Below the pieces are notes generated by a model. It made no database searches. It was not told the origin of the DNA and saw nothing but the letters and a program-made list of their open reading frames with translations. The position numbers and the translations under genes are program-made. From positions 1 to 26,812 of the IMG/VR virus record IMGVR_UViG_3300021960_000421: 26,812 bases of DNA. One strand, written 5' to 3'. Origin of the DNA: a virus. Positions 5,049-23,607 of this stretch are shown in pieces; position 1 is the stretch's first letter; every line of letters begins with the position of its first letter.

Positions 5049-5056
5049 TATAAATA
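5049..5056 (+). promoter_or_regulatory. T4-type late promoter, TATAAATA
   Basis: An exact match to the T4 late promoter octamer, 34 bases upstream of the 5090 gene, in the intergenic space between divergent genes. Such promoters are read by host RNA polymerase with the phage sigma gp55. Predicted transcript start about 5062. Confidence 0.75.
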
Positions 5057-5089: not shown

Positions 5090-5524
5090 ATGCAAATGAT
5101 TCACAGTTATTTATATACACCAAAAGTTCGAGTACAAATTTCGGATACGGGTGTGACAAACATACAGGAGCGAAGAGTGTACAACCACGTAATTCAACTG
5201 TACAAGGGTACGGATAATCCTGTACAGGTTAGATTTTTAAACCAAGACCAAAAGAAAGTAGACGTAACCAACTACACGTTTGTAGTTGCTGTTATGAATT
5301 CTGACCAAGGACAAACAATTTTTTATCCCACACTAACAGTAACCAATGCTGCCGCAGGGCAAGGAACTGTTACATTTACTGAAGAAGAACTCGCACCTCT
5401 AGATGCAATGCGTTATACGCTGGCTATTAAAGGAACTGTTAATGGGGTAGAAGCCCCTGTCTACAGCGACGATAATTTCAATTTGAGTTTAGATTTGCAT
5501 ATTAATGAAGGATTTTTATCATAA
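5090..5524 (+). CDS. Putative beta-rich virion structural protein
   Basis: A 144-residue protein whose alternating hydrophobic pattern (VQVRFLNQDQK, YTFVVAVMNS, GTVTFTEEEL, YTLAIKGTV) looks like an immunoglobulin-like or baseplate-upper-protein-like beta sandwich. It follows a perfect late promoter, which fits a virion component. No signal peptide, cysteine or catalytic motif is visible. The start could be ATG 5090 or ATG 5096; no strong ribosome site separates them. The end of the gene is covered by a 9-base-pair hairpin. Assignment to baseplate, neck or fibre cannot be made from the sequence alone. Confidence 0.7.
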   Translation: MQMIHSYLYTPKVRVQISDTGVTNIQERRVYNHVIQLYKGTDNPVQVRFLNQDQKKVDVTNYTFVVAVMNSDQGQTIFYPTLTVTNAAAGQGTVTFTEEELAPLDAMRYTLAIKGTVNGVEAPVYSDDNFNLSLDLHINEGFLS

Positions 5525-5658: not shown

Positions 5659-5686
5659 CTTAAATACCTAGCAACTTTATAGGTAT
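5659..5686 (+). promoter_or_regulatory. Late-like promoter overlapping a ribosome-site hairpin
   Basis: CTTAAATA (5659-5666) matches six of eight positions of the late octamer. ATACCTA (5664-5670) and TAGGTAT (5680-5686) form a perfect 7-base-pair stem with a 9-base spacer. The only Shine-Dalgarno-like AGG (5681-5683) before ATG 5691 lies in the 3' arm. A transcript started from the late-like element, at about 5672, would lack the 5' arm, so the ribosome site would be free only in late mRNA. The interpretation is inference. Confidence 0.45.
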
Positions 5687-5690
5687 CCCA

Positions 5691-6512
5691 ATGAAATTAA
5701 ATCTTGATCGTATCCACGAGCGCCAAGCTCGCCTTAGTTCTCACCCGTTGTTTTTGGGTGACTGCTTAAAAACATTGGACGATTTGCACATTTTTATGGA
5801 ACATCATGTGTATGCTGTTTGGGATTTTATGAGTCTTATCAAAGCACTACAACATCATGTGTGCCCAAGTACAGAATGTTGGGTACCTACACGCTGGACT
5901 CGTGCAGGACTTGCTCGCATTATTAATGAAATAGTGTTGGGTGAAGAAAGCGACATTGATATGGGAGGTAAAGGATCAATTACTCATCACGATTTGTATG
6001 CACAAGCAATGCTAGAAGTTGGTGCAAACGGACGCAAGTTTGAGTCTTTTATTGAACGTGTACGTAACCTTGGATTCAATGATGCAATGGAAAATGCCGC
6101 TGTACCTCCTGCCTCAGCAAGTTTTATGAAAACAACATTTTCTTTTATACACACTCGTGAGCCACATGTAATTGCAGGTGCGTTTGCGTTTGGTCGTGAA
6201 ACACTTATACCTGGAATGTTCCAAAGTCTTTTAAATCAAATGCAGATTACTGCACACGATGCACCCAAGTTTCACTACTATCTAAAACGTCATATTGACT
6301 TAGATGGCGATGAACACGGACCAGCCGCTGTTCATATGGTAGAAACATTATGCGATTATGATCCAGTAAAAATACATCATGCAGAACAAGCCGCACTTGA
6401 TGCACTTGATGCACGTATCAGATTATGGGATAAAGTATACGAAATTATTACAGATCCAGAAGAAAAAGAACTTTATAGCGAATTGTTTTTAACTGAAGGG
6501 ATCGCTCCATAA
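5691..6512 (+). CDS. DUF3050 family protein, haem-oxygenase-like metalloenzyme
   Basis: A 273-residue protein, full length for the family, with the features I associate with DUF3050: H-P-L near the start, M-E-H-H-V-Y-A-V-W-D-F-M-S-L at residues 36-49, I-N-E-I-V-L-G-E-E-S-D at 78-88, H-H-D-L-Y at 99-103, P-H-V-I-A-G-A-F-A-F-G-R-E at 158-170, and the hallmark R-H-I-D-L-D-G-D-E-H-G-P at 200-211. The conserved Glu/His/Asp residues (for example Glu80/85/86, His99/100, Glu170, His201, Asp204, His209) look like the metal ligands of haem-oxygenase-like di-iron oxidases. The substrate is unknown. Its last bases overlap the next gene by one base, so it is probably made with the radical-SAM enzyme as one pathway. 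It is not a standard T4-type gene. Confidence 0.85.
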   Translation: MKLNLDRIHERQARLSSHPLFLGDCLKTLDDLHIFMEHHVYAVWDFMSLIKALQHHVCPSTECWVPTRWTRAGLARIINEIVLGEESDIDMGGKGSITHHDLYAQAMLEVGANGRKFESFIERVRNLGFNDAMENAAVPPASASFMKTTFSFIHTREPHVIAGAFAFGRETLIPGMFQSLLNQMQITAHDAPKFHYYLKRHIDLDGDEHGPAAVHMVETLCDYDPVKIHHAEQAALDALDARIRLWDKVYEIITDPEEKELYSELFLTEGIAP

Positions 6513-7990
6513 TGGCTGAAGTTGTTCTGCTTACAGGATTGGCTGTTACTAATAGGCTCTACAGATCAATTAGCGGAGCACAATTAGGCTGGTGGTTACG
6601 CAAGCACGAGTACGATGTACAAGTAATTGACTTTTTCTGCCAACTTACAGACAACGAAATTTATCAACTCATTGACAAGTTCGTTGATAAAAAAACCCGT
6701 GTTATTGGGTGGGGCATTATGGGAACGCATACTCCAATGGCAGGGCAAATCAAACGCTTTGTTGAAGAGATGATGCCTGAACTAAGACGCCGTTATCCTC
6801 AAGTAGTTTTTGTATGTGGCGGTGCCGCCGCACAACTTGCTAGTAAACGCTATACCAATGGTATTGGTTTTGACTACTATATGTTTGGATATGCTGAAAA
6901 TACACTGTTAAGTTTGTGCAATCACATTTTTAGGAAAGGTCCGCCGGTTCCATTTGAACGCAAACTTGGTAATAAAGTTATTAGAGAAGCAACGGTATGT
7001 CCATTGAGCAAAGAAGATACGTTTACTATTAAAGAAGATGATCATATATGGCATGATAGAGATTGTATTTTGCCTGGCGAAAGTTTACCAATTGAAATAG
7101 GGCGCGGTTGTATATTTCGATGTAAGTTTTGTGCATTTCCGCATGTAGGAAAAAAGAAAGGTGAATACACTAGACTTATTGAACACATTGAACAAGAAAT
7201 CGTCAGCAACTACGAACGCTTTGGCACCACCAAATATTATTTGCTTGATGATACATTCAATGATGATATAGATAAAATACGCAATTTTAGAGACATGCGT
7301 CAACGACTACCTTTTAAAATTCATGTTGCAGGATTCTGTCGAGGGGATCTGCTATGGGCGCATCCTGAAAGCCCATACATACTTGAAGAAGCAGGAATGA
7401 TTGGCACATATTTTGGAATTGAAACATTTAACGAAACCGCCGCTAAATTTGTAGGTAAACCCTGGAGCAATACTCATGCACAAGATTATCTAGTAAAGCT
7501 CAGACACGAAATTTGGAAAGAGCATGTGAGTTTTAGATGTTCAATGATTATTGGTTTACCTTATGATACACGTAAAGATTATATTCGTTGGCATCGTTGG
7601 TTTGTAGAAAATGAAATTCCAAATTGGAGTTGGCATCCTCTTCATCTTGAAAGAGACCTAAGAGCTCAAAACAACAGTGCCATTGACAGAGACGCTGAGA
7701 ATTATGGTTATACCTGGATTACAGAAAACAGTCGGGTTATGTGGAAACACAAAGAAACTGGAATGACCTGGCGCGATGCAGAACAACTGTACAATGAGTT
7801 TGAAGCTCTAAAAGCACCATATCAAGTTGAAAACTGTTTTGGATTAATTGAAGAATTTAATTACATGCCTGCAGATACGGACCCATTGGATCATAATTTT
7901 ACTAAGGTTCAATATTCGGTTACCGCAGAGCTCAGTGAAAAAAGACGCAACTTTTTAAACCAATATACCAAAAATCTACTTGCTCTTTAA
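6512..7990 (+). CDS. Radical SAM enzyme with cobalamin-binding-like N-terminal domain
   Basis: A 492-residue protein. Residues 1-140 form a Rossmann-like domain of the B12-binding radical-SAM class (VVLLTGLAVTNR, IGWGIMGTH, VVFVCGGAAAQL, FGYAE). The core shows the cluster motif Cys200-x3-Cys204-x2-Cys207 in R-G-C-I-F-R-C-K-F-C-A-F-P, then YYLLDDTF, a G-I-E motif in YFGIETFNE and S-M-I-I-G-L-P. The tail is rich in Trp and His and may bind the substrate. Members of this class methylate or rearrange unactivated carbons. It overlaps the DUF3050 gene by one base, indicating translational coupling and a shared pathway. All three cluster cysteines are present, so it is probably active. Confidence 0.88.
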   Translation: MAEVVLLTGLAVTNRLYRSISGAQLGWWLRKHEYDVQVIDFFCQLTDNEIYQLIDKFVDKKTRVIGWGIMGTHTPMAGQIKRFVEEMMPELRRRYPQVVFVCGGAAAQLASKRYTNGIGFDYYMFGYAENTLLSLCNHIFRKGPPVPFERKLGNKVIREATVCPLSKEDTFTIKEDDHIWHDRDCILPGESLPIEIGRGCIFRCKFCAFPHVGKKKGEYTRLIEHIEQEIVSNYERFGTTKYYLLDDTFNDDIDKIRNFRDMRQRLPFKIHVAGFCRGDLLWAHPESPYILEEAGMIGTYFGIETFNETAAKFVGKPWSNTHAQDYLVKLRHEIWKEHVSFRCSMIIGLPYDTRKDYIRWHRWFVENEIPNWSWHPLHLERDLRAQNNSAIDRDAENYGYTWITENSRVMWKHKETGMTWRDAEQLYNEFEALKAPYQVENCFGLIEEFNYMPADTDPLDHNFTKVQYSVTAELSEKRRNFLNQYTKNLLAL

Positions 7991-8014: not shown

Positions 8015-9025
8015 ATGTGGACTGAAGTACAAGATACATTAACAAGTTTATTACCTCCCAAGCGTAAAACGTCCGGCAGTGGCTGGATTAGTTTTAATGC
8101 ACCTTGTTGTGTACACAACGGAGAAACTCCCGATACCAGAGGTCGCGGGGGAGTAATTTTCAACGGACAAGGCGTAGTGAACTATCATTGTTTTAATTGT
8201 TCTTTTAAAGCAAATTATACACCAGGTAGACATTTAAATTATAAATTTAAAAAGTTATTGTCCTGGATGAATGCAGACGAAAACACAGTTAAACGTTTAG
8301 TTATTGAAGCTATGCGTCTTAAAGAGCTTATTGCTCCTGAGGATATTGCAGAAGAACCCACAGAAGAAATTGTTATTAGAGGACGTGATCTTCCTAAGAA
8401 CACTCTGAGCCTGGGAGAATGTGAAGGACTCTACAACGAATTGCCTCATCAATTACAACATGCAATTGATTATGCTCACGATAGAGGTGTAGATCTTAAA
8501 AAATATGATTTATTGTGGACACCAGAAGAATCTTATAATCTACATCGTCGTGTTATAGTTCCTATCACATGGCGCAATCGCATCATGGGCTATACAGCTC
8601 GTGCATTTGATCCTGTGATTAAACCCAAGTACCACAACAACTATGAAAACAAGCTGGTGTTTAACTTGGATAAACAATTACATACCAGTCGTATTGTTAT
8701 TGTATGCGAAGGTCCGTTTGATGCTATTGCTATCGACGGTGTTGCTACACTGGGCAACAACATCAGCGATGTACAAGCAGACCTAATAGAAAGTTTAGAC
8801 AAGCAGGTTATTGTGGTCCCTGATCAGGATGATGCAGGACAAGGATTGGTACGTGCCGCACTCAACTATGGCTGGAATGTTAGTTTTCCTGTGTGGCAAA
8901 ACGATTACAAAGATATCAATGATGCAGTTTGTAATCTAGGAAAACTATTTGTACTACGAAGTATTATTAGTGGTGTAGAATCTAATCCACTAAAGATAAA
9001 ACTGAGGAGAAAAATTAATGTATAA
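8015..9025 (+). CDS. 61: DNA primase, gp61-like
   Basis: A 336-residue protein equal in length to T4 gp61 within a few residues. The N-terminal zinc site is formed by Cys31/32, His34, Cys59 and Cys62 (PCCVH ... YHCFNC). The TOPRIM domain shows V-C-E-G-P-F-D-A-I-A with Glu232 and P-D-Q-D-D-A-G with Asp270/272, the metal-binding residues. It makes RNA primers for lagging-strand synthesis on the gp41 helicase, encoded 1.5 kb downstream in the same run. The ATG lacks a Shine-Dalgarno sequence; the 3' end overlaps the next gene by 8 bases. Confidence 0.92.
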   Translation: MWTEVQDTLTSLLPPKRKTSGSGWISFNAPCCVHNGETPDTRGRGGVIFNGQGVVNYHCFNCSFKANYTPGRHLNYKFKKLLSWMNADENTVKRLVIEAMRLKELIAPEDIAEEPTEEIVIRGRDLPKNTLSLGECEGLYNELPHQLQHAIDYAHDRGVDLKKYDLLWTPEESYNLHRRVIVPITWRNRIMGYTARAFDPVIKPKYHNNYENKLVFNLDKQLHTSRIVIVCEGPFDAIAIDGVATLGNNISDVQADLIESLDKQVIVVPDQDDAGQGLVRAALNYGWNVSFPVWQNDYKDINDAVCNLGKLFVLRSIISGVESNPLKIKLRRKINV

Positions 9026-9690: not shown

Positions 9691-10578
9691 ATGAAACTTT
9701 ATTTGATTGGTTTTCCTAGCACATCATTAAATTTTGTTGAAGCTGTACTAAAGTTTTCAACAAATATTGGTATTGACTACGGCGATCAACAATATATTGA
9801 TGCTTTTAAAACCAGCAATAGAGGAGTATTACGTAGTACACAGTCACCTCAGTTTAGTTGTGTTAACACCAATCAAATAAAACAATCTCTATACGATGTA
9901 GGAGATCCTTCGATAGTACAGGTGATCAGTCCTCTCAACGACGGCGAAATAACAGATATATGGGATCATATACATAAACAAACCTGTATATATGTTTCGC
10001 CTGAAGATCCTGTGTTTAACATTGTTAACCATGTAACACTAAAGAACTCAGCTACGATATTTTCTCCAACAGACGATATAAAACGGTTCAATCCAAAAGC
10101 AGAAAAGTTTTCTGATCTTGAACGTTGGCAACGACGAGAATATCTCAGTCAATTTATGGATTATTTCTTTGTAAAAACCAAGCAACAAAAAACTTTTGCG
10201 GATGCAAAAAATATTAAATCATTTGCAACAGAAGGCTTGTTTTATAATCCGCAGGAGACTTTGCGTGAGATCATAAGTTACTTGGGTTTAGAAATCGTTC
10301 ATGATCTAGCATTTACAAATTTATGTACACTATGGGAACTACAGAATCCAGGTATATTAAATGACTATGGTTCTGTCAGCATGTATATAAATGCTATTAA
10401 TCAAAATAATCAAGATCCAGACCTAAAAATTAACTTGCGAAGTGTTGTATATGAAGCTATAATACAACGACACCTTGCAAAAAATAACAAGGAATTGCGT
10501 TGTTATAATCTCAATAATTTTCCTAAAACTGTTAGAGAGTTATCTAAATACTACGAGGAACTAGAACCTAATGTCTAA
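9691..10578 (+). CDS. Hypothetical protein, weak sulfotransferase-like pattern
   Basis: A 295-residue protein that starts with a strand-turn segment L-Y-L-I-G-F-P-S-T-S, where a sulfotransferase would have a PAPS-binding loop, and has a late F-Y-N-P-Q-E-T-L-R-E-I-I-S-Y-L-G-L segment typical of sulfotransferase C-termini. The canonical basic P-loop residues are not present, so activity is doubtful. It also contains R-C-Y-N-L-N-N-F-P near the end. No Shine-Dalgarno precedes ATG 9691. The stop overlaps the gp41 start in ATGTCTAA. Treat as unknown function. Confidence 0.6.
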   Translation: MKLYLIGFPSTSLNFVEAVLKFSTNIGIDYGDQQYIDAFKTSNRGVLRSTQSPQFSCVNTNQIKQSLYDVGDPSIVQVISPLNDGEITDIWDHIHKQTCIYVSPEDPVFNIVNHVTLKNSATIFSPTDDIKRFNPKAEKFSDLERWQRREYLSQFMDYFFVKTKQQKTFADAKNIKSFATEGLFYNPQETLREIISYLGLEIVHDLAFTNLCTLWELQNPGILNDYGSVSMYINAINQNNQDPDLKINLRSVVYEAIIQRHLAKNNKELRCYNLNNFPKTVRELSKYYEELEPNV

Positions 10579-21148: not shown

Positions 21149-21490
21149 ATGTTTACTGTAACGCAAAAAGCAGCCGACCAAATTAAGAAAATACTAGAAC
21201 GTGATTTTACACTAACAGGTGTGAGTATCGCTGTTAAACCTAGTGGTTGCAATGGATATACATATGATATCAAACCTTGGGTGCAGATTGATGATGACGA
21301 AGCCTATTACGAACACCGTGAGGTAAAAGTTCGTGTTGTGCCAGGAAGCGAACCTTTTTTACATGGTTGTGAATTAGACTATATAAAAAGTGATGATGGT
21401 TTCTCTGCACGATTTGATGTCATTAATCCACTAGAGGTTGGGCGTTGCGGTTGTGGAGAAAGTTTTAACCTTGATAACCCAAAAATTTGA
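21149..21490 (+). CDS. A-type iron-sulfur carrier (IscA/HesB family)
   Basis: A 113-residue protein, the usual length of IscA. The three conserved cysteines are present: Cys34 in S-G-C-N-G-Y and Cys100/Cys102 in R-C-G-C-G-E-S-F. A-type carriers pass Fe-S clusters to recipient enzymes. Within this genome, the radical-SAM enzyme (6512-7990) is an obvious [4Fe-4S] client, though this link is inferred. The gene has its own early promoter and no leader with a ribosome site. It overlaps the exonuclease gene. Confidence 0.88.
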   Translation: MFTVTQKAADQIKKILERDFTLTGVSIAVKPSGCNGYTYDIKPWVQIDDDEAYYEHREVKVRVVPGSEPFLHGCELDYIKSDDGFSARFDVINPLEVGRCGCGESFNLDNPKI

Positions 21491-22242: not shown

Positions 22243-23607
22243 ATGGCCGTTATACAGATATCACGTATTCAAGTAAGACGTGGATTACATGACAATTTAC
22301 CTTCTCTAGCCAGTGCAGAAATGGGCTGGAGCCTAGATCAACGCAGACTGTTTATTGGTAATGGTACCACAGATGAAGGGGCTCCCGTAACAGGACGCAC
22401 TGAAATTATTACTGAACACAGTGATATATTAGCTCTTATTAATGTTTTTAGTTTTAAGGGTCAACCAGCTGGTTTTATTGCTGCCACTGGTCCAAACAAT
22501 ACACAGTTTACTCGTAGCCTACAAGAAAAGCTAGATGACTTTGTAAATGTGCGTGACTTTGGTGCTAAAGGTGATGGTATTACAGACGACACTGGCGCAA
22601 TCACAAGAGCATTGCATAACACATTTGGATATACCAGTGTTAATGCTGGCAGTAGCACAAGACGTACAGTTTACTTTCCAAGCGGAAAGTATTTGGTAAG
22701 TGATGTTATTAAAGTTCCTCCGTTCACACACTTAGTTGGTGATAGCGCAGAAACTGTACAAATTTATAACGAATCAACAACAAGTTTACTTTCAATCTTT
22801 GAAATTGCTGATAGCAACGACAATGTATCAACTAGCTTTGGTAATGCTGTTGGGCTAATTCAAACTCAAACTAAAGATTATACATTTGAACATATTCATA
22901 TCCAAAATGCCAGTGCTGGTATTAATCCTTGTGTAAGAGCCGCAGGCGGTCGTAAATTCTTCTTTAATAATGTTAAGTTTTCTGGTCCTGCCGCAAGTGT
23001 AGTTAATCCAGGTGCTACTCATAGTGCAATTTATATTGAAAACAATACATTAAACTCAAGTCACTTAGCAAAAGAAATTAAGTTAATTGATTGTATTTTT
23101 GAAAACCACGGGTACGGAATTGAAACAGCTGGTGTGGTGTCAGATATTGTTGCACACAGATCTAAGTTTAGTAATCTTTACAGTTCACGAGTTTTTAGTG
23201 CTACTACTACCAATTACAGTTTTATTGATTGTGTGTCAGAAAGTATTGCTAGTGAAACAAACGTAGACACCAGTTATGTTGACGTAAGAGGAAAAATTAA
23301 TTCTAGTATTGGTAAGACCGTAGTAGTTACAGCAGGTACAAATGGTGTTCTTGCTGAAATAGATTATCTCAACGATTACGAAAACCTTACTGTAAATTAT
23401 GTAATGACTATTGGAAACAGTAGACGCAAAGGAGCATTTACAGGAGTTGGTACAGGATCAAATTACTATTGGCAAGACAATTACATAGAAACAAATACAT
23501 TAAATGTTGGATTAGAAGCAGATTCGAGTACAGGAGTTATTCAAATTGATGCTACTAATGCCGCAGGTGATATTACATTTACTTACTCAGTTGAATACCA
23601 CAACTAA
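22243..23607 (+). CDS. Tail fibre/spike protein with pectate-lyase-like beta helix
   Basis: A 454-residue protein. Residues 1-75 form a virion-anchoring domain (IQISRIQVRRGL, AEMGWSLDQRRLFIGNG) of a kind I associate with tail-fibre N-termini of T4-like marine phages. Near residue 105 is the hallmark of the pectate-lyase-3 family: N-V-R-D-F-G-A-K-G-D-G-I-T-D-D-T-G-A-I. The following 250 residues have the repeating short-strand pattern of a right-handed beta helix. It likely binds or degrades a surface polysaccharide of the host. A late-type promoter and strong ribosome site precede it. The C-terminal 100 residues probably form the trimer end. Confidence 0.87.
   Translation: MAVIQISRIQVRRGLHDNLPSLASAEMGWSLDQRRLFIGNGTTDEGAPVTGRTEIITEHSDILALINVFSFKGQPAGFIAATGPNNTQFTRSLQEKLDDFVNVRDFGAKGDGITDDTGAITRALHNTFGYTSVNAGSSTRRTVYFPSGKYLVSDVIKVPPFTHLVGDSAETVQIYNESTTSLLSIFEIADSNDNVSTSFGNAVGLIQTQTKDYTFEHIHIQNASAGINPCVRAAGGRKFFFNNVKFSGPAASVVNPGATHSAIYIENNTLNSSHLAKEIKLIDCIFENHGYGIETAGVVSDIVAHRSKFSNLYSSRVFSATTTNYSFIDCVSESIASETNVDTSYVDVRGKINSSIGKTVVVTAGTNGVLAEIDYLNDYENLTVNYVMTIGNSRRKGAFTGVGTGSNYYWQDNYIETNTLNVGLEADSSTGVIQIDATNAAGDITFTYSVEYHN

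Follow-up and report, generated by a model that had tools for sequence, protein, structure and literature searches.

The locus studied here raises the question of why a phage carries a DUF3050 gene and the gene of a radical-SAM (rSAM) protein with a B12-binding domain side by side, and whether the two enzymes work together. The window, meaning the whole stretch of DNA analysed (26,812 nucleotides), makes up a whole virus record of 26.8 kb. The virus is T4-like and infects bacteria; it also encodes a UvsW-type helicase, a DnaB-type helicase and NrdA/NrdB. Its DnaB-type helicase shares at most 49% identity with those of cultured phages, the nearest by identity being found in Agrobacterium phage Atu_ph07 and the Pseudomonas PA5oct group. 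A tblastn search with both genes of the pair against 50,697 isolated-phage records returned zero matches, as did searches of the same records with the versions of both genes found at a second type of site, between gp32-like and UvsX-like genes.

The two genes and their products

The features of the locus are as follows.

5090..5524, + strand: Ig-like virion-type protein, 144 aa; left flank (phrog_1084, weak virion/tail-fibre matches)
5691..6512, + strand: DUF3050 gene, 273 aa; predicted haem-oxygenase-like dimetal oxidase/oxygenase (HDO), HamA-like
6291..6317, + strand: DUF3050 metal-ligand motif H201-x3-D205-x3-H209, the putative ligand role being taken from HDO structures
6512..7990, + strand: B12-binding-domain rSAM gene, 492 aa; its start overlaps the DUF3050 stop by one base
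6818..6823, + strand: glycine pair G103-G104 in the cobalamin-binding-type domain, the first invariant and the second at least 90% conserved; aligns with the GG of CysS and TokK
7109..7132, + strand: [4Fe-4S] motif C200-x3-C204-x2-C207, invariant in 68 of 68 aligned sequences
8015..9025, + strand: primase; right flank and conserved right border of the cargo site (phrog_47, E 3e-41)

The original prediction, made from this DNA alone, placed two full-length, intact genes with a one-base overlap at 5659-7990, between structural and replication genes. The gene structure and the placement are as described: base 6512 is common to both genes within TAATG, and the pair is flanked by the Ig-like virion-type gene upstream and the primase downstream. 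The end of the span is also correct, while its start has to be moved to 5691. Both genes are under purifying selection, with dN/dS of about 0.05-0.2 where dS is unsaturated. A late promoter for DUF3050 was considered and rejected, one perfect TATAAATA site being located at 5049, before the virion gene and not before DUF3050. With one mismatch allowed, this motif occurs at 54 sites in comparison with 53.6 expected, which is no excess, and a sigma-70 promoter scan gave no excess over shuffled sequences either.

The DUF3050 protein matches its Pfam family (PF11251) over the entire profile, positions 1-233 of 233, with 273.4 bits against a cut-off of 22.2 (E 2e-81). Its AlphaFold model (pLDDT 90, pTM 0.88) contains the HO-like helical bundle by which HDOs are recognised, and its best structural match is HamA (9vwb; Z 28.2, rmsd 2.1 over 241 residues, 38% identity), followed by CADD (Z 19.9), by HrmI, UndA and FlcD (18-19) and then by PqqC, BesC and PolF. 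Six ligand-type residues (E85, H99, E170, H201, D205 and H209) are invariant across 51 aligned sequences, and HamA also keeps the ligand-type E, H and HxxxDxxxH residues. On sequence and model, the protein is an HO-like dimetal enzyme with a predicted two-metal, O2-activating function. The haem-oxygenase-like dimetal assignment made previously thus agrees with the fold of HamA and CADD and with the invariant ligand set; of the motif H-x2-x-D-x4-H given for it, the ligands were right and the spacing was not. A canonical, biliverdin-forming haem oxygenase such as cyanophage ho1 was rejected, Pfam matches up to E 0.1 listing just DUF3050 and Haem_oxygenas_2. The PADLOC defence families gave zero matches to DUF3050.

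The partner scores above the cut-offs of both Pfam Radical_SAM (PF04055; 56.2 bits, cut-off 29.5) and, in its N-terminal part, B12-binding (PF02310; 37.0 bits, cut-off 32.1). Both the CxxxCxxC motif and the radical-SAM core that define the superfamily are present. The model is confident (pLDDT 94.7, pTM 0.92) and matches OxsB (Z 22.7), MgmA (22.4), CysS (22.1) and TsrM (21.0) over its full length. The predicted C-x3-C-x2-C motif therefore proved exact and the cobalamin-type N-terminal domain was recovered. Neither enzyme shows the loss of a metal or cluster site that had been named as a possible objection, since the folds are confident and the ligand-type residues and cysteines are invariant. 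AprD4 and MiaB/RimO also match the rSAM fold, so the N-terminal domain alone is no proof of B12 use; with no curated NCBIfam cut-off reached and no equivalog among these families, we grade the use of cobalamin by the enzyme as predicted. The best NCBIfam score, to the P-methyltransferase PhpK (TIGR04479), stays at 57.3 bits, with the cut-off at 600, and this identity was rejected; a sub-threshold likeness to a lipid-biosynthesis B12-rSAM family was also seen. Identity with a known defence protein was rejected too, the PADLOC match being weak and partial (candidate PDC-M51A, 40.7 bits).

Elsewhere in the window, an A-type iron-sulphur carrier (PF01521) is encoded at 21149-21490 and could act as a helper that loads the rSAM cluster. 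A tail-spike-like protein with Mtd_N and pectate-lyase-like domains is encoded at 22243-23607.

Adjacency in viruses and bacteria, and the cargo site

We scanned IMG/VR for DUF3050 alone and obtained 80 loci, corresponding to 33 groups at 80% identity. An rSAM of the B12 type described here immediately adjoins DUF3050 in 15 of the 33 groups (14 by tally, together with the group represented by L194, most of whose members are paired). Another, non-B12 rSAM type is the neighbour in 12 groups, and in six there is no rSAM neighbour or the contig ends there. As background, the 823 other genes of these loci include a single further B12-rSAM. Nearly all same-strand pairs overlap, mostly by 1 or 4 bases, and adjacency is kept in all three arrangements observed: DUF3050 followed by rSAM, rSAM followed by DUF3050, and convergent. 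In the DUF3050 tree, the clade of the window (12 members, support 99/99) contains all three, including the Enhygromyxa locus L012; the rSAM-first label of L185 in this tree is a guess, as its contig starts just before DUF3050.

The view that these genes form a coupled cassette, against which it would have counted if they were never neighbours elsewhere, is strengthened by this recurrence in 15 of 33 groups, set against the background of 1 in 823, and across several gene orders. The same view needs widening, since the pair is also present in other phages and in Myxococcota. Purifying selection on both genes, together with their recurrence as neighbours in many phages, places the pair far from a chance association. 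The paired state needs four changes in the rSAM tree versus about 20 with shuffled labels, and pairing was therefore gained or lost a few times. Many phage rSAM relatives of this family have no adjacent DUF3050, and at L194 and L213-L217 DUF3050 occupies the gp32-UvsX site by itself. As unpaired rSAMs are many and DUF3050 genes lacking an rSAM are a minority, each of the two enzymes may also function on its own.

A second kind of phage DUF3050 cassette was found at L170:820-6756 and in about 11 other DUF3050 groups. Here, four genes lie directly upstream of DUF3050: three are radical-SAM genes by Pfam, one of which has SPASM, and the last is cysteine-rich and has no Pfam match. The rSAMs show their best, sub-threshold likeness to PapB, other RiPP maturases and viperins. 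In a different cassette (L091, L092, L103, L109 and L209), phage B12-rSAMs of the same family adjoin one to four fatty-acid desaturase genes.

The surroundings of the pair were compared using 80 primase relatives obtained with an alignment search; a single-sequence search recovered close relatives only. The conserved frame consists of a polymerase fragment, a 126-aa gene, the Ig-like virion gene, the primase and DnaB, with varied cargo in both the virion-gene/primase and the primase/DnaB gap. The Ig-like gene forms the conserved left border of the cargo site, and we read it as lying outside the pathway. In the window group the virion-gene/primase gap holds DUF3050 and the rSAM and nothing else, while in ten related contigs (L288-L290, L296, L302, L346, L348 and L352-L354) the site is empty, measuring 10-45 bp. 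In another phage type the pair is located between gp32-like and UvsX-like genes, which were named by reading their sequences only. Since the cargo is exactly the pair, empty sites exist and a second genomic position is occupied, the pair moves as a unit. It is inherited as such in the cargo site, and adjacency is retained through rearrangement. The primase/DnaB gap is a second cargo hotspot, which carries a B12-rSAM alone in L302, L304, L309 and L345.

Compared with the nearest sister phages, the rSAM shares 56% identity, in contrast to 84-86% for DUF3050 and 87-96% for the flanking genes. Against L003 the values are 73% for the rSAM, 84% for DUF3050, 81% for DnaB and 60-76% for most flanks. 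The most plausible explanation of these identities is recombination in which the rSAM was exchanged beside a constant DUF3050. A second allele-swapped gene, with no Pfam match, is present at 9691-10578, between a 222-aa gene and DnaB, and has 47-49% identity in the sister phages versus 92-96% for its neighbours.

In bacteria, a convergent pair was found in Enhygromyxa salina (L012:6004-12837) beside two Asn-synthase-type proteins. Its DUF3050 and rSAM both nest inside the phage clade, which suggests transfer between phage and myxobacterium. A match to the DUF3050 profile is present in 32 of 284 Myxococcota genomes. Three of these 32 genomes, Enhygromyxa included, carry DUF3050 with an adjacent B12-rSAM, located upstream in the other two. 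Five weaker matches are CADD/BesC-like HDOs with a B12-rSAM directly upstream, described as HpnR-like on the basis of one of the five loci typed by NCBIfam. In the Myxococcota operons L264-L268 a CADD/BesC-like HDO lies directly downstream of a B12-rSAM, that of L268 being HpnR-like with the order rSAM-HDO-rSAM. On a Mesorhizobium plasmid, L228:2564-7777 encodes DUF3050, two radical-SAM proteins and an alanine racemase; transketolase genes precede them and a TldD-related peptidase follows. This locus looks like an undescribed biosynthetic cluster.

What the pair might do

Their recurrence side by side makes it very probable that the two enzymes work together. On balance, we lean towards a single, portable tailoring cassette of two enzymes, whose substrate would be supplied by the host and is probably amino-acid-like. 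The product classes suggested earlier (small molecule, base or peptide) are candidates at this stage. With a cargo of only two genes, either the host would have to provide the substrate or a phage macromolecule would serve as such. Most HDO substrates are of the amino-acid type (PMC13185094), and this precedent, together with the Asn-synthase-type neighbours in Enhygromyxa and the alanine racemase in Mesorhizobium, makes an amino-acid-like substrate the leading guess. The substrate of the rSAM, already supplied by the infected host and most probably an amino acid or one of its small derivatives, would be modified at an unactivated C-H (or P-H) position, typically by methyl transfer from methylcobalamin. 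After or before this step, the DUF3050 enzyme would use O2 on the same molecule; UndA, BesC, HrmI and the HamA pathway provide models for such a reaction, be it desaturation, N-oxygenation or C-C/N-N chemistry. The modified metabolite made in this way would target the infected cell or competitors. If the rSAM sets product specificity, the swapping of its alleles would be explained. A more far-reaching version, which we regard as rather doubtful, is a complete phage-borne natural-product-like pathway, in which the B12-rSAM allele would set specificity and, with the HamA-like HDO, a host amino acid would be turned into a bioactive metabolite that would cripple host metabolism or keep competing phages out. 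Candidate classes for such a metabolite would be an antimetabolite, a metallophore or a signal, and an N-O or N-N group may be part of it.

Three other substrates were weighed. Hypermodification of a nucleotide or of a base in phage DNA or RNA, combining rSAM methylation with O2-dependent oxidation, would fit the position of the pair next to the primase in the window group and to gp32-like and UvsX-like genes in another, the action of the B12-rSAM OxsB on a nucleotide and the matches to MiaB/RimO-type folds. However, these sites are cargo hotspots that also carry unrelated genes, no nucleotide kinase, synthase-like or glycosyltransferase partner travels with the pair, and enzymes of amino acids or fatty acids make up most HDO precedents, so that we consider this role unlikely. 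A peptide or protein, for example the Ig-like virion protein at 5090-5524 or an unannotated precursor peptide, is a likewise improbable target of the pair. The Ig-like gene persists where the site is empty and is missing beside most other DUF3050-B12-rSAM pairs, and the two genes have no precursor-like ORF between them. DUF3050 does adjoin a small Ig-like virion-type gene both in the window type and in the type with multiple non-B12 rSAMs, but the two Ig-like families are only weakly homologous; RiPP maturases give the best scores for several of the non-B12 rSAMs, none of which reaches the cut-off. Lipids or acyl chains are suggested by a fatty-acid desaturase at most four genes away in 14 of 68 sampled rSAM relatives, by the occurrence of FA hydroxylase genes, by the action on lauric acid of UndA, a structural relative of DUF3050, and by the likeness of the rSAM to the lipid-biosynthesis family noted above. 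The cassette of the window is nevertheless devoid of a lipid gene and the desaturase contexts belong mostly to rSAMs without DUF3050, which leaves little probability for this option.

Two further alternatives concern the coupling itself. DUF3050 might be no pathway step and serve the rSAM, e.g. as an O2 scavenger or cofactor supplier, as its constancy while the rSAM allele changes and its partnership with two quite different rSAM classes would allow. The HDO precedents are, however, substrate-specific enzymes, and MgoB and HamA sit in biosynthetic operons with no rSAM among the genes described (PMC3298696, PMC5878181); we consider an accessory role quite improbable. That the two genes are independent cargo sharing a hotspot by chance is disfavoured and very improbable: the virion-gene/primase and primase/DnaB hotspots do vary and include the lone B12-rSAMs, but the two genes are repeatedly adjacent in three gene orders, at various positions in the genome and in bacteria, over a near-zero background.

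Relation to known systems

The HDO superfamily (CADD, UndA, BesC, HrmI, FlcD, PolF) resembles the DUF3050 protein in fold and ligand set, at an identity of about 9-15%; CADD has one residue fewer between D and the last His than the HxxxDxxxH of DUF3050. Similarly, the rSAM resembles OxsB, CysS, MgmA and TsrM in its two-domain fold over the full length (Z 21-23), in CxxxCxxC and in the GG of its B12 domain, but shares just 13-16% identity with them. In PQQ biosynthesis, an rSAM (PqqE) and an HO-like oxidase (PqqC) belong to one pathway. PqqC is among the fold matches of DUF3050, and we use this pathway as a working analogy only; PqqE is SPASM-type and not B12-type, and PqqC is metal-free.

Closest by family are HamA, MgoB and PvfA of the ham, mgo and pvf diazeniumdiolate operons, which belong to the same Pfam family as the DUF3050 of the window. 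Their partners are an AurF-type N-oxygenase and an NRPS, whereas here the partner is an rSAM; neither of the former was found among the Pfam-scanned genes of the window, which represent part of the ORFs of a 26.8-kb genome fragment. HamA belongs to the fragin/valdiazen cluster, and its role in N-N bond formation is only hypothesised (PMC5878181, PMC11705231, PMC11659414). MgoB is the DUF3050 protein of the mgo operon, and its mutant still made mangotoxin, although slightly less (PMC3298696).

Among phages, the marine T4-like pelagimyophages carry radical-SAM cassettes as variable cargo of hypervariable regions (PMC7029224). This is rSAM cargo like that of the window, with DUF3050 or the pair unmentioned in the accessible part of that paper. 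In the searchable literature, which excludes most subscription journals, the accessible text of publications naming DUF3050 yielded none on phages, and no publication was found that brings together B12-binding, radical SAM and phage genomes, or HO-like proteins and radical SAM in gene neighbourhoods. Within that literature, the earlier statement that no function has been described for this pair in phages remains valid; the families are known, and the coupled phage cassette appears to be undescribed. DUF3050, a family with almost no assigned chemistry, gains a minimal two-gene test system with some fifteen natural variant groups. The usual phage metabolic genes boost an existing host pathway; if our reading is true, this cassette would be a phage-borne tailoring pathway that combines O2-dependent dimetal and B12-radical chemistry to make something the host does not.
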